Position numbers and translations under genes: made by a program. The notes under the pieces are model-generated. The model searched no databases, had not been told where the DNA came from, and saw nothing but the letters and a program-made list of their open reading frames with translations. DNA of 64,000 bases from Massospora cicadina (Eukaryota > Entomophthoromycota > Entomophthoromycetes > Entomophthorales > Entomophthoraceae): the NCBI GenBank assembly GCA_022478985.1, contig JAKSZP010014535.1, forward strand, positions 124,001 to 188,000. Reading direction: 5' to 3'. Each line of letters opens with the position of its first letter. The first letter of the stretch is position 1. Positions 7,653 to 60,567 of the stretch are shown here, piece by piece.

Positions 7653-7739
7653 ATTTTGTCAGCGCCACCATCCCACACCTAAGATCACCGGAAACACCAA
7701 GTTCAGCATAGCTGAGAAATGATCACAGAAGCTGAACTG

Positions 7740-10395: not shown

Positions 10396-10400
10396 GATTG
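10396..10400. repeat. Target-site duplication of Gypsy B, right copy
   Basis: GATTG, matching 3,072-3,076. Confidence 0.9.
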
Positions 10401-10437
10401 TGGCTGAGAAAATTTAGAAGTACGTTAAGTGCACATT

Positions 10438-10977: not shown

Positions 10978-10989
10978 AGTTGGCCATTC

Positions 10990-11748: not shown

Positions 11749-11935
11749 ACTTTCAGGAAAATTGGATGGAAGCCTGCAGGAGAGATGAGTGAATTAATAG
11801 AACTACGACCTTGAGTTTTTCTTAAGAGTGCTAACTAAAGGAAATTCACCCTCCAGTTGATCACTAATGAACAAAAACATATTAGACTTCAGGTGAATCT
11901 TGACATGTTGTTGGCGCCACCATCCCACCCCTAGA

Positions 11936-12247
11936 TCACCGGAAACACCAGGTTTGGCATAGCAGAAAATTGATTGCAGAATCTAAACTGGTGTACCAAG
12001 AAGGTACTGGCTGACGGACAACATATGATGTCTGGGAGGCTGAAGAAGCCGCCATCACCAATGGACCTGCGTCCATGTTCTGTTCTAATTGTTGGGCCAA
12101 CTCAACGCTCATGAAATTACCTGCAGGTCCAGTATCCACCAGGGCCCCAAAGGAAACATGGTGAGATCCAATACTAATCTTCATGGGTAATAAGAAGTAA
12201 GTGAAGTTCTCTTTATTGGTAGTTGTAGATGAATACCGTGACACCAA
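11936..12247 (-). CDS. Aspartic protease of Gypsy A
   Basis: A 103-codon open frame with MKISIGSHHVSFGALVDTG: the DTG triplet is followed by PAGNFMSVELAQQLEQ, a typical retropepsin flap-side region. The segment ASSASQTSYVVRQP is shared with Gypsy B. It precedes RT on the same strand as expected for gag-PR-RT order. Upstream, gag is mostly deleted and replaced by short-repeat DNA. Confidence 0.75.
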   Translation of the reverse strand: MVSRYSSTTTNKENFTYFLLPMKISIGSHHVSFGALVDTGPAGNFMSVELAQQLEQNMDAGPLVMAASSASQTSYVVRQPVPSWYTSLDSAINFLLCQTWCFR

Positions 12248-12267
12248 AGAGATGGCAGTGGAGTCAC

Positions 12268-12332
12268 TTGCCTGCCTGCCTGCCTGCCTGCCGCCGCCTG
12301 CCTGCCTGCGCGCGCGCGCGCGCGCGCGCGGG
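12268..12332. repeat. Compound microsatellite (CCTG)n-(CG)n
   Basis: About seven CCTG units run into an alternating CG tract of roughly 24 bases (12,307-12,330). It lies where gag of Gypsy A should be. The CG run is striking in a region otherwise poor in CpG. Confidence 0.9.
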
Positions 12333-12560
12333 AAACCGCTAGGTTCAGGGGGAAGTAAGCTCGTTGCAAGTTGGATTTTCAGGTCCTACTGACATAGGCA
12401 CTATAGCCGCGGCAACTTATGGGGTGTGGATTTGACATTTTGAGTAAACTGGGCTATTATGGACAGGGAAAATCTTCTTCACAACCTTTTTCAGTTGAAA
12501 AGGAGGGACCATTGCTACTCTAATATCTATGAGAAAGGTGAAAATGGTTAGGAATAATGG

Positions 12561-12571
12561 TTGGTCAATTA
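12561..12571 (-). other. Primer-binding site of Gypsy A (self-priming type)
   Basis: Sense strand AATTGACCAAC, one base after the 5' LTR end. It is an exact 11-nt complement of GTTGGTCAATT at 12,880-12,870, the predicted 5' end of the element's own RNA. Confidence 0.78.
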
Positions 12572-12572
12572 T

Positions 12573-13725
12573 GTCAGGCAGACAGCAAGTTATAATTAGA
12601 CTGCCTGCAAGCTTAGGTGCTGGAGCACCCAAACGGCAAGCCAGAATGCCAAGGGCACTGTTGCTGGTACGACGGATATGAAACTAGAAAGGTGTTTCAC
12701 CAGTAGCTGCTAGTGAGCCAGAATCTTGTACAGGCACATAAAAAATACCAGATGAATATGGCTGTTAACCCCAAGGGGTGAGTGAGTGCCAGCAGGAAGG
12801 GCGGTTTATTTTCCAACATAAAAAAATAAATTTAGGGAAGGTTTTTTTAATGGAAAATAAAGGAAGGAAAATTGACCAACAATTTTCTCAGTGCAATGCA
12901 ACTGATTAAATAGTGGTTAATTTATGAGGAAACAAGCCAGGATCAGGTCCCTCAAGTTTAACCTAACTGGCGAATATTTGGGAATGGGGGCAGATAAGCT
13001 CACTGGGAACTGACATCAAAGGAATTGTTGGTAGGCCGAATTTCTGTCAGTTTGACCTCAAACACCTGAACCAAGTCTTGACTGTGTTTCTGGTGGTTGG
13101 CACGACAGCATCTGGCCCAATAAGCAATGGGAATCCCCCAAGGCCACCCCATGTAGGGGCGGTCCCAATTGGTTGAGAATGGGTTCAGGATGCCTAACCC
13201 ACCCGTGCCCGGTCACTGGGCCATTCATTTGGTCAAAAGCGTTGCATCAGCCACAATGCCCGATTTGCCAGAAGGGGGCATTGAACTATCATCGATGGTG
13301 TCAGATGCTGCTACCTGCATGTCATGGATCATCCCTGACAATTTTGGGAGGGGGTTAATTTTGACAATTGTGGTGTTGGCTGAATCAAAACTTTTGGCGA
13401 TTCCAGCCAATGAATCAATATTCATTCCTTTTTGACTATATAGATTCCAATCATCAGATCATTTTCACTCATTTTTGGGCTGATCAACTTCATTTTGGCG
13501 AATTAGGCGCAAATTTCCCTGATAAGCCATACAAGTTTAAGTGAGGTAAATGTGGACACTATGGGAGGGTTCTTAAGAGGGAGGGCTGTTACCCAGCGCT
13601 TGTCTACCACATGGGCGAGGTCGCCCTGGGTGACGAGGGGTATAGCCACCCTCTTTGGAGCCTTTTTACTCAGAAATGGGAAAAGGGCCCAATTGACATA
13701 CAGGGGACGTTCCCCTGGACTTACA
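12573..13725 (-). repeat. 5' LTR of Gypsy A
   Basis: A 1,153-bp LTR. U3 is 13,725-12,881 and R-U5 is 12,880-12,573. The outer edge abuts the CACTA duplication at 13,726-13,730. It resembles the Gypsy B LTR in U3 and around R but differs in U5. Confidence 0.9.
12870..12912 (-). promoter_or_regulatory. TATA-like box and predicted start site, Gypsy A 5' LTR
   Basis: TATTTAAT on the sense strand starts at 12,912. The proposed +1 is G at 12,880, opening GTTGGTCAATT, 32 nt downstream, and matches the primer site 11/11. Confidence 0.72.
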
Positions 13726-13730: not shown

Positions 13731-13798
13731 ATTACAACTGATTTAATTCGATACTAGGTGAGTTTGATAATATCTTTGAGGAAATAGTGTGCACACAA

Positions 13799-14960
13799 TG
13801 TCAGGTAGCAGTTGGGCTAGCAAAGTAAATAGCACAGGATCAGTCTTTGCAATGTCCAAAATTTGTAAATGCCCTGGCAACATCTATGGCCTAGATAAAA
13901 ATAAATAACCAGTGTTTAGTTTTTCCCCAGAGATTTTAGCCTGGCAAGCAAATTGCAACCAGTTCATCAAAACTCCGCATTCCCAGCCCCAGTTGTCAGT
14001 GAATCTCAGTGTTTGATTTTTACTGGATATTAACTTAACGGCACTTTGGGAAAAGTTCTGTGGAGATGTGCACAAACACTTCCCAGCAGCAGTGATTTTT
14101 TCACCACACTCTATTGCCTGCAGTTGGTTGAATCTTGGGTTTGAGACTAAGAAAGCAGCGGATGAAACTGCACAGGTGAGTTTGGTGGTAGTCCTCCAGG
14201 ATGGTCAATGGGTGGTTGAAACAAAGCACACACAATTGACCAAATCTAACCAAATTTTTGTTACATTATGCTTTCTCCCCACAACAATAAAATGCACAGT
14301 GCTGGAGCACCACCTCATGGTTGGGCTTAAAAGCTATGGTGAACTTCAATTCCTCAAAATGCAACGCTTCACACTTATGCTAGACCTGTGCATGGGCAAA
14401 GCGATTACAATGATTACCTCAACAGTGATCATCATGGAAGACTTTACCCAAATCCATACACTGCAGTTGTGAACTTGATGGGCAGGAATACTGCCTGTTC
14501 CGCATCATGGTGGATAGCGCGCCCCCTATCTGCACCTTTTGTTGCGCTTTTGGCCACAAGGCTCACACATGCCCTTCCAAAAAGGCCATCAGACAGAATT
14601 AAGTCCTCCCCAATGCAATGGGCAGCGCAGACTCCCATTATGAACCTTCCATTGACATCAATGCCGCCTTCCCGTGGGGTGTTCAGGGGTGTTACATTCA
14701 GGTAAAACCTGTGTCCCCACAAGAGCGCAAGAGGGCTAAACAGGCCCATAGAGCAGCGACCAAGGCTGAGGCTAAGGCTGCGTCCATGATCCCGCCTGCC
14801 AGACCCAGGATGACATCAAGTCATTTGCAACTGAAGCAGCTTGAGAACCCGCTCACCAATCAAATTTGGCCCACCAACCTGTGGACCATATGGTTGAGTC
14901 AGATTTACCTGAGAAAATTTACCAAGCACTGATTGAAATCAATTCTACCAACCAATTTTC
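13799..14960 (+). pseudogene. LINE-1 ORF1 (Gag-like, CCHC knuckle)
   Basis: Starts MSGSSWASKV, the same opening as LINE-2 ORF1. Readable blocks: ALWEKFCGDVHKHFPAAVIF, LVVVLQDGQWVVETKHTQL and MLDLCMGKAITM, then a canonical zinc knuckle at 14,531-14,572 (CTFCCAFGHKAHTC, spacing CX2CX4HX4C), then FPWGVQGCYIQVKPVSPQE and a basic Ala/Lys-rich tail (AKQAHRAATKAEAKAAS). An RNA-binding chaperone role is expected for LINE ORF1. Stops and a frameshift at about 14,400 disable it. Confidence 0.78.
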
Positions 14961-15189
14961 CACCGAGCTTTCATTGACATCCAATGGTGCACCGCAGGAG
15001 CATACTGTTCAAAAAGCTCAAAATAAACCATAAAAAAAACACCAAAACTGATACTACATCTAAAACAAAGGAATCTCTTAAGACCTCTTACTCAATAGCA
15101 CAGTCCACACATGGTTCCTTGGAGAAGCATGCTGCAAAAGAGGTGGCTGAAGGGCAAGAGGGTCCTTCCCATTGCACTTAGGTGCATTG

Positions 15190-15850
15190 GGGTGAGCCCT
15201 CACAATAGGGACGTTGAACATCGCTAAACTCAAGGCCTCGCCATCCCAGGCTTGGAAACTGAGCTTTTTTAAAATTAATTTACCTGTGGACATCCTGGCC
15301 ATTCAGGAAACCCACTGTCCACACAGTGCCGAGAAATCATGGACAACCATACCCCTCCCCTCCATTTCCTTTAGGTTACCACTCTGTGGGGTGCTTATAT
15401 GCGTGACCCAAAGTTTTCAAATTAATTTTTAGAAAATTTGTACCTCGATGGGCGTGTGCTTGTAGTGTCCCTTTAATGGGATGATGAAGTGCACACTATC
15501 ATTAATGTTTATGCCCCATCCTGTACGTGGGCTCTTGGAGAATTCCTCTCTGACAGTACTTCACTCCCACTTCCTCCTGATCTGTTTGTTGTGGGCGACC
15601 TGTTCTGCTGGGCCAACTTGGCCACTGACTGCTGGCCTTCAACGCCAACCCCCTGAAGGGGCACATTAAACTACGCATTCTAAAAGCCATCTTGGGGATT
15701 TTTAATACCCTCCCCAAACACACACCACTGCTCCCCACATGTCTCGCCCCCATGTGCACAACGGTCAGCTGAGGTCTATGTCCCTTATTGATCTCATTCT
15801 CGCCCTGTTGAACTTTCACCCCCAGATTGCGCACTTCACAATAACAAAAA
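15190..15850 (+). pseudogene. LINE-1 ORF2 endonuclease (APE type)
   Basis: Landmarks are the DILAIQETHCP box near 15,290-15,325 (metal-binding Glu), an INVYAPS-type strand near 15,500, LFVVGDLFCW near 15,585-15,615 (normally GDFN) and MSLIDLILALLNFHP near 15,780. The order matches AP-type endonucleases of LINEs, which nick the target DNA. Several frame changes and stops are present. Confidence 0.68.
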
Positions 15851-16419
15851 ATTGATTATTCAACCACAGGCTGGTTTTGTTTCCTTCACTTTATCAAGCC
15901 CAGCGGCACAGGCGCCAAAGTGGTGCAAACTTTGCCCAGCTGATATCACATCACCCAGGTTTTACTCTCAGTTAGACACTAAAACTTTGGCATCAGAATT
16001 CAACACACCACTTTGTGCTGATCCCCTTGCTACCTGATCAACCTTCAAAGCAAACACCATCCTTCAGACATGCCACCTCTCAATGCATCGCTTTTGGTCT
16101 GCCTTGGCGGTCATTAACTGCACGCTAGTTGAAGTGGACCACCTGGAGTCAAATGTCCCTGCTGCATGGTACAGCCCAGCTTGGTTTCATAAGTGGGTAG
16201 AAGTGTCTGCTCGTCTTAGCACACTAGTAAGACAACACAAACATCACGTTTGTGTGCAGTATAAGGCAAAAAATATAATGGCAGGTGACGCATGTTCTAC
16301 CTACTTTTTCTGTAAATTCCTTGCACAATTACAGAGCTTGGCCTGCACACAGGTAAGGCAGCTGGACAATTCTGTCACAGATCTCCAGCCGCCATGGCTG
16401 TCAAATTTTGAAAATATTA

Positions 16420-17400
16420 TACTGAGTTGTTTAAGTCTGAACCAGCCAAACATGATGATATTAACGAGTATCTCAATGATTCACATATCTGCACCATTTT
16501 CCAATGCCCAGAGCTGATGAATTTAATTACTCAGGACAAACTCTGGTATGCCATTTGCGGTGCACCAAACAGGAAGTGCCCAGGCCCAGATGGGATTCCA
16601 TATGAGTTCTACAAAAAATTTTAACTATTGCTCCTCTCTGATGCTTTCCTCAATGAACATATGTCTTCTAGAAACGCGCCTCCTTCCTGAGGGCCATAAG
16701 GCATACATGATAACGCTGTTTAAGAAAGAGGATAAGCTGAACTTGTGTAACTGGCGCCCCCATATCATGTACTAATAAAGATACTAAGTTATTTACTAAA
16801 ATCATGGCCAGCCGCCTTGTGGGTAGTTGCTTTTAAAGTAATCTCCTCTGAGAAATTTGGTTTCATCCCCAAGCGGTCAATATGGGACAACATTTGCACC
16901 GTAGCCAATGTCTGCCAATCTACGGCTACTGGGTCGCTTATGTTCTTATTTCAGCAAAAAGCCTATGATAGGGTCAGCTGGGATTACCTCAAAGCCTGCC
17001 TCCACAAGTTCCACCTCCCTTACCAGTTCGTTATTTGGGTGATGCATCTCATGGAGTCTGCCACAATAGCTGCCTGTGGCCCTGGCTTCCTCACTGATGT
17101 GTTCCACCCTCTAAGGGGTCTCCGCCGAGGGGACCCTTTAAGCCCACTCTTATAAAACTTCAGCCTTGGCCCAGAACTACGCAATGTGAATGCACGCCTT
17201 GATGGTGTCCATGTGCAAGGCCAAGCACAATTTAAGATGCTAGCATTCGCTGACAATTGTGTAGATTGTGTGTCCAACAACCAAGATGCATGCGCGCTGG
17301 AGGCTACTATTTAGGATTACTCCAGGGTCAGTAACGCTGCACTTGACGCCTCCAAAACTGAAATCATTCTCTTTGGCTGGTACCAGGCCTGCTGGTCACC
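16420..17400 (+). pseudogene. LINE-1 ORF2 reverse transcriptase
   Basis: Readable motifs: NRKCPGPDGIPYEFYKKF near 16,565-16,620, LPEGHKAYMITLFKKEDKL, FGFIPKRSIWDN near 16,855-16,890, QQKAYDRVSWDYL near 16,950-16,990, LRRGDPLSPLL near 17,120-17,150, and the catalytic box read as FADNC near 17,246, where the second Asp of FADD is Asn. It would prime reverse transcription at the nicked target. The Asp loss plus frameshifts make it inactive. Confidence 0.82.
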
Positions 17401-17439
17401 AGCAACCCATTACCTCCCACTTCAGAAGATAGCTCACAG

Positions 17440-18860
17440 GTTTTCTTGCCCCAGCCATCCCACACTGCCTGCTTGTGCTCCCTTTTGTGCCAAGACCCAC
17501 TGCTGGTCTGGTATGCCATTTGGGAGTGTGGCTTGATTCAGGTGGGTTGCCTCTTTGGTAATGGAGCACCACTCAACAATGTCACAAAGCGCATCGCCTC
17601 CCTCAGAGCCCACCAGACTACCCTCACAGCCTAGGTTTTGCTTGCCAACTCTATGCTCATGTCCAAAGTCTGGTTTGTGGCCCATTCCATCGCCTTTTCC
17701 CCCTCTTTCTTCAACTCTTTGTATTGTCTACTACAAAAATGGCTTTGGTTAGGCCGCCCTCCCCCTGTGCTCATGAAGGTCATGTTTGGCCCTCGCCATA
17801 GTGGTGGTATGGGCCTTCTCAACTTCGAGACCCATGCCATCAAGATTCTTGGCACCTGGGTCGCTATGGTCACTAACCCCACACTCCTGGCCCAACACTG
17901 GTCACGCATGGCCTGCTCCAACTTTTTCCACACCCTTGGCCTAAGCAATTCTACCCACCCCCATTCTCTGTTAAACTATCTTACCTCTCATCTCTCTGTT
18001 GTGGGTCTGAATGGGACGCAGGCCTACTTCAAATGCATTCTCCTCTCCATGCGGAGTGCTGAATAGAGAATTAGCATCAGTGGACACACCGCCCAGAGGG
18101 GTCGCCCTACTCTCCGTTTCAAACAAGAAGTCTGTGGGCAAGTCGTTTTAAACAGCATGGTACCCAAACGTCCCCACATCATAGCCCGTGTGGACTACCT
18201 TGACAAGCTTGACATCGCATACTCTTTGGAGACCCAGAAGGACAATTGGCGGTAAACACCATCCTCTTTTACAACCCCAAATTTGCGCCCTTGTGTGGAG
18301 ATGCCTGAGAAAGGTGTACTGAACGGCTAAGCGGTCCAATGCCTCTCAATCTTCATGCATTGTATGCAGTCAATATGGAACATTAGTCCATCACTTGGAA
18401 AATTTCCCACCCTCACAGTCAATTTGGCGGAATGTTATGCGCCTTTTTTTTTCAGGAGAGTGAACAGGCTTTCAGCCTTTCCAAAAACCTCTTCACCTTT
18501 TCCATGATCTCCCCTATCCACCTTCACTCCATGCCTTAATTGTTGCATTAGCTCTATGGACGATCCACACCATTGTTCTTTATGCACTGTCTGGCATTAC
18601 CCCAACCCTCCATGAAGCTGTTCGTCACTTCTATTCCCACCTCACGGATCACTATCAAGACTGGCTGTTTGGCCACATGCCATCTCACCAACGCTGGTTG
18701 GTGTCATCCTGGTTTCCCATCTGGTTCCTCTCGCTGACCCTTTCCTTCATTCATGTGCAGTTTTGGCCCAGGACTCCTATGTCACTCCCCCACTTCCTTC
18801 CACTGGCAGTCACGCTGGCAACAGGAGTAGCCTCGGCTTTAGAGTGGTGCCTCTCGTTTT
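17440..18860 (+). pseudogene. LINE-1 ORF2 C-terminal region
   Basis: Contains LRQKWLWLGRPPPVLMKVMFGP and GGMGLLNFETHAIKILGTW, a signature downstream of RT in LINEs carrying an RVT-type zinc-binding module. The CXXC...HXLXXC segment appears around 18,340-18,410 (CMHCMQSIWNISPSLGKF-like, degenerate). The open stretch 17,638-18,066 is the best preserved part. Confidence 0.68.
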
Positions 18861-18893
18861 TCTTGGTGTTTTGCAGTTGGAGTTTATTGAAAG

Positions 18894-18934
18894 TGTCCAT
18901 CCCATGGTTGGCCTTCCCTGAATAAATTTTAAGG
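18894..18934 (+). other. LINE-1 3' tail with AATAAA
   Basis: TGTCCATCCCATGGTTGGCC, then TTCCCTG and AATAAA at 18,921. The same tail ends LINE-2 (55,958-56,001). A close relative ends the gag-only retroposon (34,293-34,326). Confidence 0.85.
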
Positions 18935-21359: not shown

Positions 21360-22025
21360 GGCCCAGTAAACAAAAGTCCTTCAGGTTTCTTACGATTCTG
21401 TAACCAGCACAAAGAGGTATGAATCATTACCATAATAAATGCACTCCATGGATATAAACGCAAAATTTTTTGCAAGCATAAATAACATCTAGAAGTTCAT
21501 TTTTAGTAAACGTATGATTCCGTTGGTGTATATCCATCACCCAGCTGCAGTAAACGACGTGGTGTTCTATGACTTCATCATCAAACTGGGATAACACCAC
21601 CCTTACAGCAGTGAGGGATGCATCCATATGATAAATGAACTTGTTATTTAATTTTTGGGTACATCAATATTGGCGCTTTGGTGAGGAAAATCCTTAGCTG
21701 ATCAAAGGCTAGCTGGCAGTCTCCAATCCATTTAAATGGTACCCCATTCTTGAGAAGGTGAAACAGCAGTTCACCTATTTTATTAAAGTTCTTCACAAAC
21801 CAGTAATAATAGCAACCATTCTTACAGTACCTTAATATCACGCTTGCTACTTGGCCATAACATTTTTATAGCCTCACCCTTAGCGGGATGGGGCCATAAG
21901 CCTTGTTTGTCAATGGCAAAATGCAGATATTCCAATTGTTCATTGAAGAAATTGCACTTACAAGGCTGTATCTTCAGATTTTGTAAAATCTTATGTTATT
22001 CACTCTCTTTTGCTTCAATAATTAA
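21360..22025 (-). pseudogene. RNase H and RT thumb of F3
   Basis: RNase H: MDASLTAVRVVLSQFDDEVI (first Asp) and FTKNELLDVIYACKKF (Glu) at 21,627-21,430. Upstream on the minus strand, 21,841-21,644 reads GVPFKWIGDCQLAFDQLRIFL, the connection domain, and 22,000-21,850 reads LKIQPCKCNFFNEQLEYL, the RT thumb. The gag-only retroposon separates the thumb from the palm. Confidence 0.78.
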
Positions 22026-23938
22026 ATCAAAGCCAAATTTGGATTTTTATAAAAAAAATACAAAAAATGACCGCTCAAATGAGCTAAAACTTACTGATGT
22101 CAGTGCAATCGTCACCTACTGCCCCATCTTGGGGTGGTGGTGCACTGCCATCTGGCGTCTTTCAGCTGCCACTGAAGCGGGATGGGCTGGCTCTGCTAGC
22201 CCTCCCAACGCTACTGGGCGTTATGTCCCCCCTGGTACTTGGACCACCATCTTGCAAGCTCCCAGATGGTGCTCCCACGAAGCAATTTGCAATTCAGCCT
22301 CCAGATCAATTATAGGAATCTTTTCCTATATGCAAATATGGCCATCATTGAGATGGCCACAGCAGTTTTCAAACCCACCGGTTTCATTGACTTCTGCCCC
22401 TTTAAGTGGTACTTCAATCTTGACTTCCATTCAGAAGATGATGATGCAGCAGCATCTCAGCTGCAAATTGTTTTTATAAAAAAATTCTTATTCCCACCAT
22501 CTGAATGTGGCTCCCAGATGAGGCCACTTTTATGGTCCAGTTCGCTGGGTTGCCCTCCATCTCTTTCCCAGAATGCCTCCGCCACAAGCTCACAGAGGGT
22601 TTGGCCATTTATGGCACAGACCCCATGTTGCAGTTTGTGGTTCCCAATGGGGCAGATCGGTTGGCAGGGCCTCACGCCTTTGCAATGATCCACCCATTTC
22701 ATTGTGATTTTCACCTTACGATTCCCTCTGCACTGTGATCACATCTGCCCCTGATCACCCATTCTGGTGCGCATCAAAATGGCCATGCCATTTGCCCCTT
22801 GTGCTTCAGGCTTGACCACTCAAAGTGCAAGTGCCCCAGTTTCCACATCATCCACTTCTGACATTCAGTCCTTGGGCGTTGGGCCTGCGGCCATTTCGCC
22901 TCAATTTTTTGAATGGGGCTTGATCCTCCCACCCCAACCTTGGGGCAATTTGGCACTGCTCCAAAAGCGGCAGCCAATCAAAAACAAAATTTTAAAAACT
23001 CTTGATACAAATTTGGCTGGATATTGGAATCCTGAGTCGATGGCTGAACAAGTTTCAGCTGAGCTGCCATGGTTGACAGTACATGGCCAAATAGCTCCGG
23101 CCACAGCCCCAATTCCTGTGGCTGGCCCAGTGCTGGCTGTTTCCAATCCATTTGAGGCACTCAAATAGAATGATGAGGATTAATGGCCGTACCATATGAA
23201 ATCAGATTTTGCTTTGGAGGAGTTTTTGTTGACCCTCTTGAATTGCGTTCCCACCATTTTCATCCAAAAAATGGTTTTCCAAATTCAAAAGTATCAACAA
23301 AATGGCGGTTGAGGCTTCAGCTGCCCCTGCCAACACCCTACTCTGCCAAAAACTCCATGGGGCAATGGAGCCCCTTGTTGAGGGTATTCCTAACCCAATT
23401 TTCCTCCTGATTTCGAGGAAGATGTGAAGTATGAAATCTAGGAGCTTGCTTTTGGTGTGAGCTGCACTTTCATTGACATGGCAAAAACTTCTCTTTTTAA
23501 CCCCAGTATCCCAAAACCTGCCAGCGCATCAAGTCGTTCACTTGTATGCCAGCTCTCATTACTTTCGCTAAGCATCAACTTGCTCAATATGTTGAGGCGA
23601 TTGACTCCGCTGGCCTCATTAATGAAGAAAATCCACAACTATACTTTCTTATGCCCCATGTCGCTGATGCTCCCACCCCAATGCTGTCTGCCATGGTCCA
23701 CCAGCTAAAGCAGGCGCCAGACAAAAGTTTCTCCAAAGCTTCCTCCCCTTCTGATATGGCTTCCTAAGCTGTTAGCTGAGGTGCCATATTAGGAAATTTT
23801 TATTTCTAATAATCCCTTTTTTTGGCACATTTGCAAGATAAAGATGCATGACGGCTCCCCTTTTTTTGGGTTGTGCACCACTAGTGCTAAAAAAGGGTTT
23901 ATTTTTGGAATGGCTTTGTCTAGCTAGTGGAAAAGTTA
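22026..23938 (+). mobile_element. Gag-only retroposon, copy 1 (inside F3 RT)
   Basis: Interrupts the F3 RT in antisense orientation; ends are approximate because I could not fix its target duplication. The product starts MSVQSSPTAPSWGGG at 22,097, passes a central region in two frames (MVQFAGLPSISFPECLR and MLQFVVPNGADRLAGP), then a CCHC knuckle at 22,793-22,834 (CPLCFRLDHSKCKC). It ends with LITFAKHQLAQYVEAIDSAG and MPHVADAPTPMLSAM, stopping at about 23,767. No endonuclease or RT is present. The 3' UTR (GGTGCCATATT) resembles copy 3 rather than copy 2. Confidence 0.72.
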
Positions 23939-25972: not shown

Positions 25973-26158
25973 TCAGTGCACAATATTAACTGGTGCCCCA
26001 CTATCTACAAAAGCTCTTATCTTGAGCTTATTTACAAAAATATCAATATAGATACATTTTGACCATCTAGTACTAAAAAAATATAGATACATTTTGAGAA
26101 ATATGCATCTGCAGAATTGAGTGCATGGACATCCAAAATGTCCACATGATCTAAACAC
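25973..26158 (-). pseudogene. Protease of F3
   Basis: A short open frame ending KLKIRAFVDSGAPVNIVH; DSG is the retropepsin active site. A tandem-like repeat of a short segment (CIYIDIF and FFSTRW surroundings, 26,050-26,095) suggests a local duplication. Zinc-knuckle gag sequence lies upstream. Confidence 0.68.
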
Positions 26159-27988: not shown

Positions 27989-29417
27989 TATTTAAATTGG
28001 CGCTTAGGCGTCATATGCAGATGCAAAGATCAATACACACAACCAAACCAGTTACTGTTTGAGGACAGAAACTCTGGGTAATAACATAACCCAAAAACCT
28101 TATTCTTGAAAATAGGGCTTTTTTTAATCAATATAAAAAAGCGTACACTGTAGTATCTAAATTTGCAGTGGCTATGAGGCTAGCTGCGCTTAACTTAACA
28201 GAAAACTAAAGATAGCTACTAATGAAAATAAATCCCTTTCTCTATGGTTTTCTCACTCAGAAAAGCTCTCTATACCAGAATTATCATTGGCGAATTTCAC
28301 TATTACTTAGAAGCCCTTAAGAATGGTTCTCTATTGGTTTAATATCATAGAACTAAGCAAGGAGAGTGAATGAATATGGATTGAAGAATTTTATCAAAAT
28401 AAGATCAATATGCTAGTTATAGTTGAATTATGCCGGATGTAGTCAAATGACTGGGTGATGGCCATAGAAATTATAAAGGGACCCTATCACTGCTGTTTTT
28501 ATGCCTACGTGGGGCAAAATAGCATATCAAGCTGAACTAAAATAGGAAGCAATTGGTCAATCGAGGCCATGTAGGTTGGTGGCCAATAATTTATGGTAAT
28601 GAGAAATGTGCCAGCGGGGATTAAGGATTTTATTGACAGTAAGTTAATAATTTGCCAAATACATATAAAACCATGGGCCGCAGGGTGAAATGATTACTTA
28701 AAACCAATCAAATCTCTAAGTATTAGTCAAAGTAAACGTAGATATATAAAAGAAGCTCTGGAAGGATTTTTACCACCCAATACTTTCTGTGAAAGTGTCT
28801 AATACCATATGGAGGACATTCCATGGTTCATAGAAGACAAGGGATCAAACTGGCCCTACCTTTCAACACCGCAGCTGCCCTTGTTATTTGAAGACTATTA
28901 ACTCACATCTCCACTTCTTTTTCATATGCCCAAGGGTCACCGCATTCTGTCCCAAAATCTGCGCGCTCCTCCATGCCCTCCCATGGACTGGCAACCCTGT
29001 TCAAGATCTGTTCTTTGAGAAGACCCTACCTAGATGCCACCAACCACTCTGAGACCTTGCCTATGCCACAACACTATGGACAATCCACAATTCCTTCCTT
29101 TAGGCAGCTTTTGACTTGACAGTATGGACCCTACAGCACATGAATGCCCACTTCCAGGTGCAGTATAAGATGGCCCTGAAAGTCTCAACTATGTCGCCAA
29201 CCCTCCTCTGGTAAGTCTCAACTGCAGCAAGGCTCTGGCGCTCCAACCTCCCTCCCTTTCTCAACATCTCCTCTCTCCCTTTCCCTTGCCTATGGCTCTC
29301 AGGAGCCCAGGTTTAATTAAATGTACATTGATGAATACCCCCATCAGGTTAGGACCATCTAGTAGTGAAAAAATGAATATAAAAATAATATCCCATATGG
29401 TTGGTCAACCAATTACA
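27989..29417 (-). repeat. 5' LTR of F3, interrupted
   Basis: LTR halves 27,989-28,751 and 29,377-29,417 align with 19,191-19,970. The first dinucleotide is TA instead of TG on the plus strand, a terminal mutation. Confidence 0.78.
28752..29376 (+). mobile_element. LINE-like 5'-truncated fragment in the F3 LTR
   Basis: A 625-bp insert flanked by ATATAAAA (28,744-28,751 and 29,377-29,384); the other F3 LTR keeps one copy. Part of it (CTATGGACAATCCACAATTCC near 29,080) resembles the C-terminal ORF2 region of LINE-1 (CTATGGACGATCCACACCATT near 18,555). It is probably the 3' end of a third LINE family, but the tail differs from LINE-1 and LINE-2. Confidence 0.6.
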
Positions 29418-31883: not shown

Positions 31884-32145
31884 ACATTTCAGTTAATACC
31901 ATTCTCTTAGTATGTGCGCCATGTCTGTAATTCATGATATAATACCTGCCACTGTCCCTAAGGTGCTCATAAACAGCAAAAGATTTCTTTTCACCAGGAC
32001 AGCACTAAGAGTGAGGCCAATGCTTGGCCAAACTTGCTATTGGAGCTAATGATCTAGAAAGTAATAAATATTTTTTCAAAATAAAAATAAAAAATCCTAA
32101 ATTCTATATGAATATTATATTTACAAGCAACTTTACTTTAGAATC
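31884..32145. other. AT-rich flank of the gag-only retroposon
   Basis: No gene or motif recognised. It continues at 34,343 after removal of the insert. Confidence 0.5.
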
Positions 32146-32161
32146 AAGAAGATGAAATTAG
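32146..32161. repeat. 16-bp target-site duplication, left copy
   Basis: AAGAAGATGAAATTAG, repeated exactly at 34,327-34,342. Confidence 0.92.
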
Positions 32162-34326
32162 CCACTTTTGTTCTTTCCACTCGGCATAACTTTCCAAGCA
32201 AAATCACATTAATTTATAAAAAAAATGAATTTGCCCATAGTAGTTTTGCTCCGATGTCCTCAGATTCTCCACCAGCTGCTCCAGCGTGGGGCAGCGGCAA
32301 AACTCCCCATGCCATTTTCTATCTGGCAGGAAAACGTGCTAGGACTGGTTCACCCAGTCATTCCAAACTTATGGGACGATTCATTCTGCCCAAGGACCTA
32401 GATGCCCATCTTGCTCATACCCAAGTGGTACCTTGCTGCCCCCTAGTGCTCCCCTGGAGCAACATGCGCTATGCCTAAGGGTCAAATATGGGAAAATATT
32501 CCCATACCATGACCACCCATTATCAAAATGGCACAGGCGGTGATGACACCCATCAATTTTATTGTTTTCCACCCCTACAAGGGGTATTTCAACCTTGGCT
32601 TCACCTGAAAATTTGATGCTGCCATTGCAGCAACTGTGCCCCTGGTATTCCAGGGCACCCCTCTCCCCACAACTTGGACTCTGCTCCCAGAGGACACCAC
32701 TTTGGTGGTTCAGTTTGCTAGCTTGCCCACCCACCCCCCCCTGAAGTGCTTCACCAGGATCTGATGGATGGTTTGGCAGCCTATGGCTCCAACCCCATCT
32801 TACACTTTGTGGTCCCTAAGGGGCCACATGACTTGCTGGGCCTCAGGCATATTCCACAATCAGCCCTAATTTAATAAAATTACAGAGTCAATTCGGCCAT
32901 GCACCGTTATTCCCTCAGCACCTGACCATCCATTTTGAGCCCGCGTTAATGTTGGGAGGATGATCTGTCCATCATATTTTGAGTTAGACCACTCAAAACG
33001 CAAGTGCCCCTCCTCAACCACTTTTGGCGGATTGGATGACTCATCCACCGACCTCCAATCTGCTGCCCACCCTGTACAATTTCTGGTATGGGGCATAATC
33101 CTACCTCCCCCACCCCCAAAGCCTATTGCTGCAGCTGCACCTGCAGCCACCAAACATCCTCCTCCTCACCCCAATGCCATAAATAATTCATCCAATCAAG
33201 CATTGGATTGGATCCCAGTTCGATCCCTTGCTTCCATAAATGAATTGACCAAACCTCAACCGTATGCTGATTCCCCAATCAAATTCAATCAAAACTCATG
33301 GGAATTATTGGCTGAAATTGATGAATCAGGTAAGTTCATTGAAGAACCATCTTTGCAAATTGAGCAGTTCGTTAATGCAGAATGGGATGCCAGATAACCC
33401 CCTCAACTTATATACCCCACAGCCAGATGCCAAATCATTTTGCAGTGACCGCCAGCTTGCAGTTAAAGCAGCTGCAACACCAGATAGTTGTCCCCTGTGT
33501 AAATCTGTCGCTAAACCAGTAGTGATGCTCACAGGAGGAATTCCACATCCTGTTATTCCCACAACCTTAACTCCAAAAAGTAAAATCATGGTGGAATATT
33601 TTTATATTTTATTCAAGGTGGGCCAACCTGGGGACGATACTACACCAATTAAGGGAAATTGAATGAATGAGAAAGGAGGATTGGATCTGGAAAACCTCCA
33701 TACATGGCGTATGATAGGCCAGGAGCTCCATGGACCGCCTTTGCTATTTGCTATCTCAGTTTGGGGCATTGGTGCGCAAAGCCAACAGTCATAATTGTCC
33801 CCTACCCAAAGTTCAAGTACCAGAATTGAACTCGGGGAGGCAGCAAAAATCATGGTGGACTAGCTATACAAAAACGCAAACAATGCTATCCAGAACATGG
33901 CAACTATAGCACGGAATCCAAAAGCAAAAATAACCCAAACCAACATTGCCACATTCATCAAAGCTGAAAAAGCTTTAACCAAATATCTCAGTGCCATTTA
34001 TCTAGCTGGCAATTTCCATGAAAATCCAATTATCAGTGATATCAAACCACATACTGCAGATGCCCCAACGCCATTACTGACAGCCGTGACATGCACTTCA
34101 ATATGGGAGAAAGAAGCTGCTGCTGAAGCTGTGCCCCACAATACCCACTCCCCTTCCACCATTGAGGGATAAGCGGTTTCTGCTGCCCACCTGGTTGGTT
34201 GTTTTTTTATTCATTCATTCAATCCGCTCATTAGGGCGTTTTGTTTGAACCAAGTAGTTATTTTAGTTTTTAGTTAGTTTTAGTTTTTGTAATGTCCATC
34301 CCCTGGTCAGCTTGCCTCAAATAAAT
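32162..34326 (+). mobile_element. Gag-only retroposon, copy 2 (complete)
   Basis: A 2,165-bp plus-strand insert with an exact 16-bp duplication and no LTRs or terminal inverted repeats. The product starts MSSDSPPAAPAWGSG near 32,254, then reads MGRFILPKDLDAHL. A middle region of stops and frame changes leads to a knuckle at 32,966-33,007 (CPSYFELDHSKRKC, second Cys now Tyr), an open stretch 32,960-33,397 with Pro-rich LPPPPPKPIAAAAPAATK, and a C-terminal segment (FIKAEKALTKYLSAIYLAG, IKPHTADAPTPLLTAV) ending at 34,172. The tail TGTCCATCCCCTGGTCAGC... AATAAA resembles the LINE tail. No RT or endonuclease is encoded. Confidence 0.85.
34293..34326 (+). other. LINE-like 3' tail of the gag-only retroposon
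   Basis: TGTCCATCCCCTGGTCAGC, then TTGCCTC and AATAAAT, against TGTCCATCCCATGGTTGGCC, TTCCCTG and AATAAAT in LINE-1. The match is confined to the terminal ~34 nt. Confidence 0.75.
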
Positions 34327-34599
34327 AAGAAGATGAAATTAGATATTTGAGGCCCTAATTCTCTTTTAATATATCAATTACTATAAAGAGTTACTTAGGC
34401 TTATAATAATATAGGCTTACAAAAAACACCCAAGTTACTGCATTATGTGACCATTCACCCAAACCCCACAATAATTTAAAAAAAACACAAAAAATTACCA
34501 CAGGATTTGATCTAGTTATGCAGTTCCAAGTTTCCTCAAACTTGCTTGACTGCGCCTTGATCTGTTTCCAAGTGGGTACATATAAACTCTCACCAGGTC

Positions 34600-41191: not shown

Positions 41192-42870
41192 TACCCTAAG
41201 TGGGGTAATGATTCACTACCTCCTAGAACTTTATCATCCGCTTCCAAAGCGCATCTGGGATGGTTTCACTAGCCCATATTCCCACCAGTTTCTTTGCCCC
41301 TTTGGACCTAGCTCAAGCTCTTGAATTTTCCCAGGTAGTGCTTAGAAGCCCCCTGTTGCTCCCCAGAGCAACCTGCGCTTTGGCCTTTGGATCAAGTATG
41401 AAACCTCATCCCTTAAGCAAGTTCTGCCATCATCAAGATGGCCTATGCAGTTTTAAAGCTCTCCAGTTTTATAGACTTTTGCTCCTTTAATGAATATTTT
41501 TATCTGGATCACTAGAGAAGTCCATATTATAACTATGGTGACAATGCTTTCAATTTATAAAAACACCCCATCCCAAATACCCACACTCTGGTAGTTTAAT
41601 TCTCCAGGTTGCTTACCCATCTTTCTCCCAACCAGCTCTTCCTATAACTCCTGGAGTAATTGCCATCATATGGATCTGATCCTGTTCTATAGTTTGTGGT
41701 TTTTAATGGGTCCAGCCTCCTTGCAGGGCCTCACGCCTTTTTAACTAACTGTTTCCACTGGGATACCCACCTTACAGTTATACTCAAAAAATGATCCTCT
41801 CTTACCATGACCACCCATTCTGGGCCTGCATTGAGAACAGCTGCACCTTTTGCACCTTGTGCTTCAGGTTAGACCACTCAAAATTCAAGTGCTCACCATC
41901 ACTGCTGGAGCAGCTTGTGCCACTCCTCCTTCCAGCGTTGGCCCCACAGCCAAATTGCCTGAACTTTCAAAAGGGTCTCAATCGTCCCTCCCCTTCTTCA
42001 ACCACTGCATTTATAGCTTCTGTTACAACCGCCAGTAAACACCAATATTTTCAACAGTTTTAGGCAATATTGCTGTTTAATCCCCCTGTTTACTTGCCTT
42101 AGTTGACAGTTCATGAGCCAACAATTTTTGCATAGACCAATCAGTTCCAATAGCTGGGATGTGTTTACCCTTCTTGGACCATTTGAATCTTAAATGGTTA
42201 CTCAATGATAATCAGCCATTAAGTAAAGCTAGATTTTAATTGGCAAAATTTTTCAGCCCTCAAATTCAACTTTCAGCAATGCTTCTGCCCTTGCAAGGGC
42301 TATCTAGTTTACTGTGACAATCTTCAGTTTGTCTTAAAATTGTACCATGCCCTTCCAACATTCCCCTTTTCTAAGCCCTCTACGCGGTCAAAGGGCCACA
42401 TGTCAACAGAATTATCTGTTCAAATTTTCTTGGCTGACTTTTATGAGAAAGCATGGAACAACAATTGAGGAGCTTGCATTTGCTGTGGGCCGTGCATGTG
42501 CCAATGCACCAAACTCACTTTGTTTAGCACAGACTACCCCAAATGCATTAAAAGCTTAAGAGCTTTTCAGGTGCACTGAAACTTATAAATTTTATTCTGA
42601 ATCCATATTGCTCAGTATTTTGAGGCAATGCATAATTCATGCCTTCTTGACAATAATAATAAGACCTTTGCCTACCTTCTTCCCCATGCCACTGATGTAC
42701 CCACACTCATTCTATATGTTCTCTTATATGCTTTCCAATCCATGTTAGATGGAGAACCACTGATCCCCTTCCTTGTTTTATATGGCTGCCTTGGCTAACT
42801 GATAAGGTGCCATATTGGGAGTTTTTATATTGATTTATATGGCACCAATGCAACTAAAAATGTGTGGAAG
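41192..42870 (+). mobile_element. Gag-only retroposon, copy 3
   Basis: A decayed copy; the ends are approximate. It carries a clean CCHC knuckle at 41,851-41,892 (CTLCFRLDHSKFKC), a downstream open stretch with EKAWNNN-type sequence and YLLPHATDVPTLILYVL near 42,670-42,725, and the tail GGTGCCATATTGGGAG near 42,810, as in copy 1. No LINE-like 3' tail is visible, so copies 1 and 3 belong to a different subfamily from copy 2. Confidence 0.65.
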
Positions 42871-43148
42871 CCTCCTATCATGTTGTTCCCCGCTATTACT
42901 AAAATATAAATCCTTAAGCTGGACTGGGGAGACATTGGACGCCTGGTTACATCTTATGGTTCTAATAGGCTGTATGGGTAAAACTTAAAATAGGGTCATC
43001 CACCTACTTGTCAAAACTATACCTTAAAAGTAATCTATGGTTGAGTTTATTCATTGATAGGCTCATGAAAATGTCTTAAACTAAGGCTAATGGCAGGGCA
43101 TGTTAAGTTAAGATATACACTAGTAGTATAGGTGCACAGGGTTGCAGA

Positions 43149-50708: not shown

Positions 50709-50812
50709 AATTAAAAACTTTTCTTTCTCATTGCAATCACTTTTGCAACCTATTCAATTCAAGTCTGAATCTAGTTTGATAATCTCACAGAGGAGATTAG
50801 TCTGTGCCCATG

Positions 50813-51991
50813 TCAGGGAGCAGTTGGGCAAGTAAGGTAAGAGGAGCAGGTGGAAGGCCTGCAGCCTCCAATATTCAAAAACACCCCAGAAAAACTAGCA
50901 GAATAGACAAAAATTTAAAAAACTGGTGGTCACTATTTCCCCAGAAATACTCGCATGGCAAGCACGATGCAACCAGTATATCAATATGCTGCACTCCCAG
51001 CCACTTTCATTGGTGGAATACAGAGTCTGCGTGTTTCTGGATATCCAACAAATGGCTTTATAGGAAAAATTTTATGAAGATGTGCACACCTTTTTCCTGA
51101 CCGCGGTGTATATTGCACCTCACTCCATATCATATGGTTGGCTGGACCTAGGTTTCAAAAACAAAGAGGCAGCAGATGAGGCTACTGTAGTAGATGTAGT
51201 GGTCAACCTCCCTGAAGGGCAATAGGTTATTGAAACCAAATGCACCAGATAGATAGAATCAAACCAAATTTTCCTCACATTTGACTTTTTGCCTGCTATG
51301 GTAAAACATGATATTTTGGAATAATACCTGAAAGATGGTCTTGCTATATATGCAAAATATAATCTTTCAAAATACAACACTTCATGCTGATACCACACCT
51401 GTGCACCGGCAAAGCCATCACAGTTCTGACCCCAACTGAGGAGATCGCAAAGGACCTAACCCAGATCCCATACTCCACTTTTATTAATATTGAAGGGTAT
51501 ACCACCCACCTATTCCGGGTGACTGTGGACAGCGTGCCCCCCATTTGCACCCACTGTGACATATTTAGCTATAAGGTGCATATATGCCCCACCAAGGAGG
51601 GCATCATATTCAAAGAGCACCCCTCAGCAGCTATGGCCAGTGGAGAGGTGCACTATGAACCAACCATAAGCACCAAAGAGGCTTTCCCATGGGGAGCACA
51701 AGGCTGCTACCTACTGGTAAAGTCCATCTCCCCACAAGAGTGGAAGAAGCCAAAGCAGGCCTGCAGGGCCGCAGCCAAGGAAGCAGCCAAAGCTACCACT
51801 GCTATCCCATACTCACAATGCCAGGAGGATATCAAAACCTTTGTGGTGGAAGCAAATCAGGAATCTATCAACCAATCAGATGGGGAAGCCCATGCCAATT
51901 GGGCCACCCAATCTGAGAATCTGATGGGGGACTCAATCTCACCCAATCATCACAACCAAGCTCCAGTCAAAATTGACCTGGGGCAAATCTG
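50813..51991 (+). pseudogene. LINE-2 ORF1 (Gag-like, knuckle with His-to-Tyr change)
   Basis: Starts MSGSSWASKVRGAG. The open stretch 51,384-51,992 (202 codons) holds CTGKAITVLTPTEEIAKDL, FINIEGYTTHLFRVTVDS, the knuckle at 51,546-51,587 (CTHCDIFSYKVHIC) whose metal-binding His is Tyr (TAT), EAFPWGAQGCYLLVKSISPQ and the basic AKEAAKATTA tail. The same positions in LINE-1 keep the His. An RNA-binding role is inferred from LINE ORF1 proteins in general. Confidence 0.8.
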
Positions 51992-52254
51992 ACCAGAAAA
52001 ATTTATTCTTTGACTAGAATGTTGATGCACCACAATCACCCACATCTGCACCACAAAAAATTTGTCCAATGTCAGGGAAACAAAAAGCAAAGGCAAAAGC
52101 CAATGAAAACCTCTCTGCTAAAATTAACAAAAATCCTGATAGCATTGCTGCTAACACCCGTGCTGCCATGAAGGCCTGTGGGGATCTAGAGGAGGCTAGT
52201 GGGCCCGGGTGCCCACCCCCTCAGTACCTAAGGTCCAATGGAGGAAACCTTCAC

Positions 52255-52975
52255 TTTAGGGATGTTGAATATTGCCTGACTCAAGGCCTCACTGTCCCAG
52301 GCTAGGATACTGAGTTTTTTACAAAAAAATTTACCCATGGATATCCTGGCCATCCAGGAGTCCCACTGTCCATGAGGTTCCGAGGAGGCTTAGAAATCCA
52401 TGCTCCTACCATCCCTATCCTTTTGGTCAGAGCACTGTAGGGTGCTAGTTCAGAGAAACAATCTCTTCAAATTTGTATCATCAGAAATATTCCTGAATAG
52501 CTGAGTTCTCATTGTAACTTTCTTGTGGGCTGACATAGCACACGCAATCATCAATATCTATGCCCCAAATGGTGCATGCGAGCGTCAGGAATTTTTCTCA
52601 TCAGTCAAATCCCTCCCGCTACCCCCAAACCCATTCATAGTTGGCAACATGAACTGTTGGCTAAACACACCAATAGACCAGTGGCCTTCCTCACCCCACA
52701 CCCCCCAGGGTCACGTAGAACTGCAAATTCTAAAGGCCACCTTCAGGATAATGGATGCACTGCTGCAACATGCCCTGCTGCTCAAAAACATGATGTGCCC
52801 CCACATCCACAATGGCCAATTGAGGTCCATGACCCGCATCAACCTTATCCTAATGCTGGCGAAATTCCAACCCCACATCTCCCACTTCAAAACAACAAAA
52901 ATGGAATTCTCTGACCACCGACTGGTCTCAATAACCTACCACCTACCCACCACAGTGGCCAGGGCCCCACATTAG
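52255..52975 (+). pseudogene. LINE-2 ORF2 endonuclease (APE type)
   Basis: Blocks in order: MDILAIQESHCP near 52,340-52,375 (Glu of the active site), AIINIYAPNGACERQEFF near 52,545-52,600, FIVGNMNCWLNTP near 52,635-52,670 (family GDFN altered to GNMN), NLILMLAKFQPHISHF, and SDHRLVSITYH near 52,910-52,945 with the terminal catalytic SDH intact. The frame is open from 52,523 to 52,975. Confidence 0.8.
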
Positions 52976-53548
52976 TGCAAGCTCCACCCCCCAAACTTGC
53001 GGCGCCAGGATTTTCCACTTGGGTGGAAGAAGCAACTTTGACAAAAGAGTTTGTAACACCATTCTGCGTGGACCCCATCTCCACATGGGCAACCTTCAAA
53101 GAGGATACCATCTGCCATGCTTGCCACCTCTCCTCCTGATGCTCACGAGCCACATCAGCGATCATTTAGCACGCTTGAGCAGAATTGGCACACCTGGAGT
53201 CCAATATCCCTGCTACAGGATACAGCCCTGCATGGGGCCAGAAATGGGCAGAAGCAGCTGCCCACCTCAACGCGCTCAAGAGACAACACAAACATCAGGT
53301 TTGTGTTCAATACAAGGCCAAACGCATCACAAAGGGTGACAAGTGCACCGCATACTTCTTTAAAAGATTTTTTGCACCATGCCAGAGCGTGGTCTGCACA
53401 CAGGTGCAAAGATTGGATGATTCTACCGCGGATATGCCAGCTGAAGTGGCAATCAAGAACACAAAAGTATTACTCCAAGTTATACCAATCTGATCCAATT
53501 CAGCCAGCCAAAGTGGCAGAAACTCTCGATTGAGCCCACATCCACACC

Positions 53549-54450
53549 ATGTCTCTATACCTGGAAATAATGAATTTAATTATTCCAAATGAATTATGGA
53601 CAGCCATCTGCAGTGAACCTAACTGGAAATGCCCAGGCCCAGATGGCATCCTATATGAATTCTACAAAAAATACTTTAAATATATATCCCCACTACTTCT
53701 TGCTTCACTTAACCAGAGCCTTTTGAAAACGCGCCTCCTACCAGGAGGACATGAGGCCTTTACTGTCACACTTTTCAAGAAAGGGGATAAGCTAGACTTA
53801 GCTAACTGGCGCCCCATTTCTTTAACAACACGGACACAAAAATTTTAACAAAAATCATGGCTAACCAATTAGGAATTATAGCATCTGCCACCATCTCCCC
53901 AGAGCAATTCGGCTTCATACCCAGAAGGTTGATTTGGGATAACGTGCACTCTGTGGCTAATGCATGTCAGTCCACAGCCTCTGGGGCACTTGTTTTCTTG
54001 GACCAACAAAAGGCCTATAATATAGTAAACTGAGAATACCTCAGGGCCTGCCTCCATCAATGTCGCTTACCACTTTGCTTCATCAACTGGGTGATGCTGC
54101 TCACAGAATCTGCAACAATGGCAGTACATGGCCCTGGCTTCATAATGGAAGTAGTCCGCCCTCAAAGGGGCTTATGACAAGGGGACCCCCTCAGCCCACT
54201 CTTATACAACTTCAGCCTTGACCCACTACTGTGAAATGTGAATGCCCAACTCACTGGGGTCCGCGTGCCAGGCCAAGCCCCAGTCAAGATGATGGCATTT
54301 GAAGATGATTGTGTGGTTGGGGTATCTAATAATCAAGATGCACGCGCACTTGAAGCTCTCATCTTGGAGTATTCCCGGGTAAGTAACGCGGCACTGAATG
54401 CTTCCAAAACTGAAATCATCCTCCTTGGTTGGTCTCAGAACTGCTGGGCC
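53549..54450 (+). pseudogene. LINE-2 ORF2 reverse transcriptase
   Basis: NWKCPGPDGILYEFYKKYF, LLPGGHEAFTVTLFKKGDKL, LANWRPISL, then after a frameshift at 53,840 EQFGFIPRRLIWDN, DQQKAYNIVN, QGDPLSPLLYNFSLDPLL and the catalytic box MAFEDDC near 54,292-54,312, where the Ala of FADD is Glu but both Asp remain. QTSK-like NASKTEIILLGW follows. Stops at two Trp/Arg codons interrupt the protein. Confidence 0.86.
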
Positions 54451-54699
54451 CCAGCAATTAGTTCTCAACCTGGCCCATCTGCTCACCCACGTCCTCGCCC
54501 TACCAGCTCAACACACACCACCCCACTAGTGCTTCCCTTCATGCCACGCCCTACCATAGGACCAGTACGCCATCTGGGCGTGTGGATGGAGGCAGGCGGA
54601 TACGCGTCAGCAGTAATGGAGAGCCGTATTCTGGACAACGTGATGAAGTGAATCGCCTCTCTCAGAGCCCACCCTACTTCCCTTACTGGCAGGGTTGTT

Positions 54700-55864
54700 T
54701 TAGCTAACTATATGCTCCTCTCCAAAGTCTGGTTTGGAGCCCACGCCATCTCCTTCTCCCCAAGCTTCTTCAAATCCTTGTATGCCCTTCTGCAAGGATG
54801 GCTTTGGTCAGGCCGCCCTCCACCAGTATGGCTAGAGATCATGTTTGGCCCTCACCATCAAGGTGGCATGGGTCTGCTCTACTTCAGAGCCCATGCTGCC
54901 AAGATCTTGGGTACCTGGATAGCGGCCACCACCGCCCCTATGCTCCCCTCCCAACACTGGTCCCGTGCAGCCCACTCCATCTTCTCCCGAGCCTTGGGCC
55001 TCAACAACCCATTGAACCCACACTCCCTGATGAAATACCTCGCTTCACACCCATCGGCCACAGGCCCTCACAGGACCAAAACCCACTACAAACGAATCCT
55101 CCTCTCCATGCAGAGCGCTGAGTGGAGAATTTGTATTAGCGGACACACAGCCCAGAGAGGCCGCCCCTCTCCTCAGTTCACACAAGAGGTACAGGGGCTA
55201 CCCATCCATGATGGCGTGATCCCCACACGGCCCCATGTCCTATCCAGGGTGGAATACCTGGACATGATGGACATCCCTTACTCCATTGAAACCCAAAAAA
55301 CTATCTGGAAATACGCACACCATCCTCTGTTGCGGCCTCAAGTCTGCTCCCATGTGTGGAGCTGCCTGAGGCGGGTGTATCCTACAGCTGAGCGCTCTAA
55401 CGCTTTACACTCATCCTGTGATGTGTGGCCAGTATGGAACGCTGTTCCACCGCCTGGAGAAGTGCCCTACCTCTAAAGTGATATGGCGCAAAGTTCAACA
55501 TCTGCTGGGCCAGGATCAAACGCATCCCTTCAGTCTATCAAGAGATATGTTTGCTCTATCAATGGCCTCCTCCCTTCCACCCTCCCTCCATGCTTTGGTG
55601 GTTGCAATCGCCATGTGGACCATCCACACGATTGTCTTAAATGCCATCGCAGGCTCCACTCCCACCCTCCCAGAAGCTGTCCACAGATTCCGGTCTCATT
55701 TGGTGGACCACTTTCAAGCGTGGATATTTGGATACCTCCCACCGCGTTGTCAACAGCTGGTCTCCTCCTGGTTCCCAGTCTGGTTCATCAAATCAGACCC
55801 CTTCCTCCACACATGTTCAATTGTGGCTACAGCCTCATCACACGTTCCCTCCCCCTCCCCATAA
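54700..55864 (+). pseudogene. LINE-2 ORF2 C-terminal region with RVT-type zinc module
   Basis: The open stretch 54,712-55,476 (254 codons) reads WLWSGRPPPVWLEIMFGP and GGMGLLYFRAHAAKILGTW, then WRICISGHTAQRGRPSPQF. A frameshift leads into 55,418-55,864, with MMCGQYGTLFHRLEKCP, a CXXC...HRLXXC metal-binding motif (first Cys in the other frame). Such modules follow RT in L1-like LINEs and help bind template RNA. One indel near 55,420-55,470 separates the halves. Confidence 0.76.
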
Positions 55865-56013
55865 GTGACATTCCCGCTGGCAACAAGAGATAGCATCGCG
55901 TCTCTGGGGTGCCTTTACTGGTACTAAGTTTTGTATCTTCTGAATCATATTTGGAAGTGTCCATCCCATGGTCGGCCTTCCCTGCAATAAATTAAAAATT
56001 AAAAACCTAAAAA

Positions 56014-60420: not shown

Positions 60421-60567
60421 TCCCAGACCTCATATGTAGTTCGCTGACTGGTACCTTTTTCAATCCACCAGTTCAGCTTCTGCAATCGTTTTTTGGCCAT
60501 GCCAAACCTGGTGTTTTCAGTGATCTTAGGTGTGGGGTAGTGGCACCGACAACATGTTAAGATTCAC

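Follow-up and report, generated by a model that had tools for sequence, protein, structure and literature searches.

Two types of non-autonomous LINEs come closest to the element described here. HAL1, known from mammals, is described as having ORF1 only and no ORF2; its coding capacity was long kept in the guinea pig, and its mobilization is thought to need ORF1p in cis and ORF2p in trans (PMC3627910, PMC4859970). TRE5-A.2 of Dictyostelium is reported to be a direct derivative of TRE5-A.1 that lacks any ORF2, targets tRNA genes and is mobilized in trans by TRE5-A.1, as measured in assays (PMC5391098). Among LINEs in general, mammalian L1 is classed as the relaxed, poly(A) type, whereas in the stringent type the partner RT recognises a 3' tail shared by a LINE/SINE pair (PMC5135761).

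The element considered here resembles HAL1 in being ORF1-only and TRE5-A.2 in lacking ORF2, and it resembles the stringent pairs in its shared 3' tail. It differs from HAL1 in the fungal host, the specific tail instead of poly(A), the divergent ORF1, an additional terminal block and the presence of two tail types, and from TRE5-A.2 in that its ORF1 has diverged; trans-mobilization, measured in the case of TRE5-A.2, is postulated here. Assignment to the HAL1 family proper was rejected, as this needs an origin from mammalian L1 and the host is a fungus, the likeness being one of working mode. Drosophila HeT-A encodes a Gag-like protein without RT and extends chromosome ends in telomeric arrays, without target duplication, and SINEs carry no ORF. 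Both identities were rejected: the copies carry target duplications on both sides, and their ORF bears traces of selection (pN < pS; third-position excess of shared variants). HAL1 and TRE5-A.2 replace HeT-A, the nearest concept in the original prediction, which had also proposed an undescribed kind of system; ORF1-only half-LINEs as such have already been described in mammals and Dictyostelium. What appears to be new is the fungal host, an ORF1 far from those of the resident LINEs, the added terminal block, and two families with the tails of two LINE clades. By title, none of the publications listed on non-autonomous LINEs of the ORF1-only or gag-like type was recognised as dealing with a fungal half-LINE.

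The insert and its relatives in the genome

We analysed a 64,000-nt stretch of a contig of Massospora cicadina, a cicada-killing fungus of the Entomophthorales (hereafter, the window). Its ends (1-13725 and 57798-64000) are occupied by nested LTR elements, classified by eye as Gypsy-like on the basis of their ORFs and repeats. The retroposon at 32162-34326 is flanked by an exact 16-nt target duplication; terminal repeats were looked for within these boundaries and none were found, so that it has no LTR, and it has no RT, all as originally proposed. Its ORF, whose start codon (32254) was read from the sequence, is interrupted by stops, frameshifts and a nested insertion. The proposed CCHC knuckle is recognisable as a region in this copy and complete only in its sisters, and the conserved C-terminal H-x-ADAPTP block is indeed present (Table 1).

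Table 1. Positions of the half-LINE copies, their parts and the resident LINEs in the window
Feature	Position	Strand	Basis or remark
Target-site duplication, left copy	32146..32161	.	exact match to 34327-34342
Target-site duplication, right copy	34327..34342	.	exact match to 32146-32161
Putative half-LINE, family A copy	32162..34326	+	1.92 kb element plus nested insertion
ORF1 gene remnant, ATG to TAA	32254..34172	+	sister copies match LINE ORF1
CCHC zinc-knuckle region	32954..33013	+	Tyr replaces the second Cys here
H-x-ADAPTP-x-L block, C-terminus	34050..34076	+	read in this copy
3' tail common to LINE3, LINE1 and LINE2	34290..34326	+	tail comparisons
Nested SINE-like insertion, ~250 nt	33596..33845	-	own 14-nt duplication, LINE-like 3' tail
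14-nt duplication of nested insertion	33582-33595 / 33846-33859		flanks 33596-33845
Putative half-LINE, family B copy, LINE4-type tail	22003..23894	+	5' end from start of sister copies
Third putative half-LINE copy, C, strongly decayed	41200..42890	+	ends approximate, tail not classifiable
LINE1, full-length (ORF1 + ORF2)	50720..55993	+	5' end read by eye
LINE2, same tail type as LINE1	13761..18928	+	5' end is start of alignment to LINE1

The 1.47-Gb M. cicadina assembly (16,968 contigs) yielded 17,642 first-look candidates for relatives of the insert (family A), of which the best 40, including the query, were scored. Both halves of the element were covered in all 39 scored relatives, and none of them contains the nested piece. 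Thus, the element proper is 1.92 kb long, and the 2.2 kb of the original prediction includes the insertion. The latter looks like the SINE of a stringent pair; an Rfam search of 32100-34400, which covers it, gave 0 matches and hence no sign of a tRNA origin. This repeat of ~250 nt is common, with further copies in L011, L013, L024, L031 and L053.

The 39 copies, which as the best-scoring of 17,642 candidates are biased towards long and similar ones, range from 1.70 to 1.98 kb, most full copies being near 1.92 kb, and any two of them diverge by 12% on average. In 32 of them a perfect target duplication, 10 nt or longer, lies near the ends, compared to 1 of 367 random positions; hence the expectation of 10-20 bp duplications in full copies holds for most, and the remaining seven lack an exact 10-nt duplication. 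When one mismatch was allowed, a looser test applied without the random-position control, duplications of 11 nt or more were found in 39/39 copies. In two copies (L009, L044) the exact duplication is displaced outwards from the aligned start by 40-45 nt, and one 5'-truncated copy (L047) has retained its duplication. Target duplication, a fixed 3' end and occasional 5' truncation, the TPRT hallmarks of a half-LINE, are therefore all observed. No intact ORF was found among the A copies read, and open stretches reach at most 352 aa in the 39; all of these copies are broken, and none of them can be a present-day source.

Probing with the ORF2 of LINE3 and LINE4, which strongly match LINE1-3, revealed no ORF2 similarity in any of the 40 element bodies. 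Further, we considered 52 matches to the terminal block in 304 kb of sequence, much of which had been retrieved for copies of this kind. The tail downstream is of the A type in 43 cases and of the B type in seven, and in two it is unclassifiable. ORF2 similarity occurs near two of the 52 matches, in one case beyond the tail (L019) and in the other on the opposite strand (L030). Thus, the copies lack RT, as had been proposed, and longer copies with an ORF2, which would make these copies deletion products, are absent from the material examined.

Family B, represented in the window by a copy for which no target duplication was found (~22003-23894), yielded 13,671 first-look candidates, of which 40 were scored; two of the six copies read have clear duplications, one of 13 nt and one of 16 nt. 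Probable further half-LINE subfamilies are present in the flanks of the fetched copies: L046 near 2966-2999 and L025 3072-3704, both ending in LINE3-type tails, L022 3218-3919, and L033 near 950-977, the last seen by eye and giving no match in the protein comparison. Two annotated M. cicadina proteins, L0F63_007425 and L0F63_005119, include half-LINE sequence; in the latter, a PF03665 protein, it is the last ~28 residues that match the half-LINE ORF.

The ORF1 protein, its terminal block and selection

Natural ORF pieces of family A matched the ORF1 of all four LINEs compared. The identity is 28% over 145 aa for LINE4, up to the knuckle end (E 3e-10), 28% over 159 aa for LINE3, in an alignment that extends across the knuckle (E 7e-9), and 34% over 89 aa for the LINE2 ORF1 region (E 1e-5); the match to that of LINE1 is weaker (E 0.002). 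The protein that had been described as Gag-like is, judging by these alignments, a homologue of LINE ORF1; hence the element is a half-LINE. Its RRM-like region was named by position, on the assumption that it follows the layout of LINE ORF1 proteins generally. Pfam gave no family above the cut-off for the half-LINE protein, nor for the LINE1, LINE3 and LINE4 ORF1 pieces and two LINE1 ORF2 pieces, and the PDB sequence search returned two meaningless matches (E 0.92 and 0.93). Protein database searches detected no relatives in other species: 2 and 6 matches were obtained, the latter from the 8000 best candidates scored, and all belong to M. cicadina.

The part of the half-LINE protein that follows the knuckle is a C-terminal region of its own, with the H-x-ADAPTP block at the end. 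The profile of this terminal block matches family B (E 4e-8, 3e-4 and 7e-4) and does not match LINE1-4; an initial LINE3 match (0.006) came from tail read-through and vanished after trimming. The value for the decayed copy C (0.42) is not significant. In the middle of the C-terminal region the best A-B profile match is 0.15, with a single-sequence match of 39 aa at E 0.002; given this weak similarity, we restrict the claim to the terminal block.

The synonymous bias suggested as a check in the original prediction was observed in all 28 between-family rows (A-B, n = 24; A-C, n = 4), where pN < pS. The corresponding dN/dS values of 0.18-0.46 are rough in size, as overlapping alignments were summed in some rows and dS is near saturation. 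This shows purifying selection on the ORF between the families. Within family A, changes seen in a single copy are distributed fairly evenly over the codon positions (192/213/169), whereas variants shared by at least four copies favour the third position (70/56/92). Most shared transitions are CpG-like; those outside CpG-like sites are distributed as 8/6/20. Such a pattern is expected if inactive copies descend from a source under constraint. Taken together, the A-B selection and the third-position excess indicate that the source copies kept a working ORF.

Tails and resident LINEs

According to a published survey, L1 LINEs make up 6.3% in M. cicadina, unlike its relatives (PMC11105155). Outside the window we found two further LINEs. 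The 3' ends of LINE3, with a tail close to that of family A, were found in the flanks of L021 and L049; longer stretches of it (L054, L055) are 91% identical and carry ORF1 and RT (PF00078, E 1e-26 and 4e-29). LINE4 is a complete LINE with RT (PF00078, E 9e-34) and EN, whose three copies (L096, L097, L098) are 95-99% identical and nearly intact, making it the youngest LINE seen here. The RT of LINE1 was located solely by similarity to LINE3 and LINE4. An old fragment at 28757-29373 of the window has a LINE4-like tail; it was identified by this tail and by eye, and no protein match to LINE1-3 was found at 1e-4.

The proposed LINE-like nature of the insert's 3' end holds for the window LINEs, as its tail is 81% identical to that of LINE1 over 43 nt (E 0.003), and the A tail as in L011 aligned to the LINE1 tail with score 24, not reached in any of 100,000 shuffles (best 11). 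The best match, however, is not a window LINE: LINE3, at two other loci, agrees with the A tail at 37 of 43 positions (score 31; 0/20,000 shuffles). Vice versa, the B tail matches that of LINE4 (score 27; 0/20,000 shuffles). Both cross-comparisons, A with LINE4 and B with LINE3, scored -3.5, which was reached by 2,642 and 1,042 of 20,000 shuffles, respectively, that is, at chance level; the tail probes in these comparisons were partly hand composites. Thus, neither family has a tail foreign to the LINEs of the genome, which would have spoken against the original prediction: the A tail is of the LINE3 type and the B tail of the LINE4 type. No stable hairpin was found, the folds of the tails being weak (-2.3 to -2.9 kcal/mol), so that the sharing of the tail is seen at the level of sequence only. 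Tail types are common to half-LINEs, LINEs and the SINE-like element, as would be expected of a stringent, tail-recognising RT.

The 23-nt end of the LINE4 tail has 15,396 exact occurrences in the genome (7,623 + 7,773), compared to none for the control. Forty of the 41 sites at the head of the listing were inspected (L056-L095). In thirty of these, an insertion of 20-55 nt is flanked by a duplication of 9-18 nt, and the insertion lengths form two groups (20-35 nt, n = 14; 44-55 nt, n = 16), the shorter of which is cut off from below, since inserts well below 20 nt would escape the 23-nt search pattern. In the longer group a CATCGATG-like string lies 0-8 nt downstream of the insertion start. 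At three sites the duplication appears only with an insert of 515-591 nt, and the remaining seven, without duplication, are by eye longer LINE4 copies. No half-LINE was recognised in reading the 40 sites. The tiny insertions are possibly LINE4 insertions aborted at preferred points, by abortive reverse transcription or with an RNA fragment as the template. In the window they occur at 26061-26081 (+) and 61171-61191 (-), and elsewhere, among others, at L028 881-908, L027 1225-1252 and L020 3499-3522.

Origin of the families and the proposed cycle

With a probability of about 0.87, we consider the insert to be a half-LINE copy that would have kept a LINE-type ORF1, has no ORF2 and would rely in trans on ORF2 protein from a resident LINE. 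Its sequence basis comprises a mobile family with duplications, a fixed 3' end, the absence of ORF2, ORF1 homology, tail identity and selection between the families. From these we infer transcription, translation, action of ORF1 in cis and supply of ORF2 in trans, which would form the following cycle. The half-LINE RNA would be transcribed from the 5' end and then translated, and the ORF1 protein would act in cis by coating the RNA from which it was made. The resident LINE would then supply ORF2 protein, which would bind the shared 3' tail, and the RNA would be copied into the nicked target site (TPRT), generating a duplication of about 10-17 nt. As regards a possible origin of the half-LINEs from a LINE of the same genome, the tails match LINE3 or LINE4, and the ORF1 is only about 28% identical.

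As to the origin of the two families, four comparatively well-preserved A copies share 32-58% of their ORF1 residues with B copies and 26-31% with LINE2-4, the B copies being 10-27% identical to the latter, and the split between half-LINEs and LINEs has ultrafast bootstrap values of 99 and 100 in two trees. The first tree contained 17 rows, after LINE1, L023y, L044x and L025x (no match) and LINE3a (36 residues) had been dropped, and its alignment was anchored on an A copy; the second contained 13 of these rows, winA, winC, L049 and L053 being left out. There is an even chance, in our estimate, that A and B belong to a single ORF1-only lineage, older than the present families, that has been a long-term LINE parasite: its ORF1 would have been under selection, the block would have been gained, and a tail of ~45 nt would have been exchanged between two LINE clades. 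Alternatively, though this is a rather unlikely course of events, A and B could be separate deletion products of a LINE3-like and a LINE4-like parent, their tails being inherited and not swapped. Such origins would agree with the pairing of each tail with one LINE clade and with the constrained tree, which places A beside LINE2/3 and B beside LINE4 and is not rejected (AU p 0.13). They agree less well with the bootstrap values of the split, with the ORF1 of A and B being closer to each other than to those of the LINEs compared, and with the terminal block, present in B and not found in LINE1-4. As the separate-origins tree is not rejected, the copies are broken and the alignment is A-anchored, the single lineage is favoured, not claimed.

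It is still less probable that the copies are SINE-like passengers, which would depend on their tail alone and carry a defunct ORF whose protein never served its own RNA. Every A copy read is broken, and the nested SINE-like element has a similar tail and no known ORF, as such passengers would; the A-B selection and the third-position excess of shared variants speak against this explanation, and so does the length of most full copies, which stays near 1.92 kb. Since LTR elements make target duplications of 4-6 nt, an LTR-retrotransposon remnant (LARD/TRIM-like) with a Gag gene, brought to mind by the CCHC protein and the Gypsy-like neighbours named by eye, may be dismissed almost entirely in view of the longer duplications (10-17 nt), the lack of terminal repeats, the LINE tail and the ORF1 homology to LINEs.

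Returning to the half-LINE reading, if the first-look counts (A, n = 17,642; B, n = 13,671) are near the truth, half-LINEs would form a sizeable share of the 1.47-Gb genome. HAL1 had raised the question why a non-autonomous LINE keeps its ORF1 if the RT comes from elsewhere. Here, one genome contains two half-LINE families whose related ORF1s are combined with tails from different LINE clades, along with complete LINEs and a SINE-like element that has a similar tail. Hence two determinants, the action of ORF1 in cis and the recognition of the tail by ORF2 protein, would be separable, and both may become testable by tail swapping.
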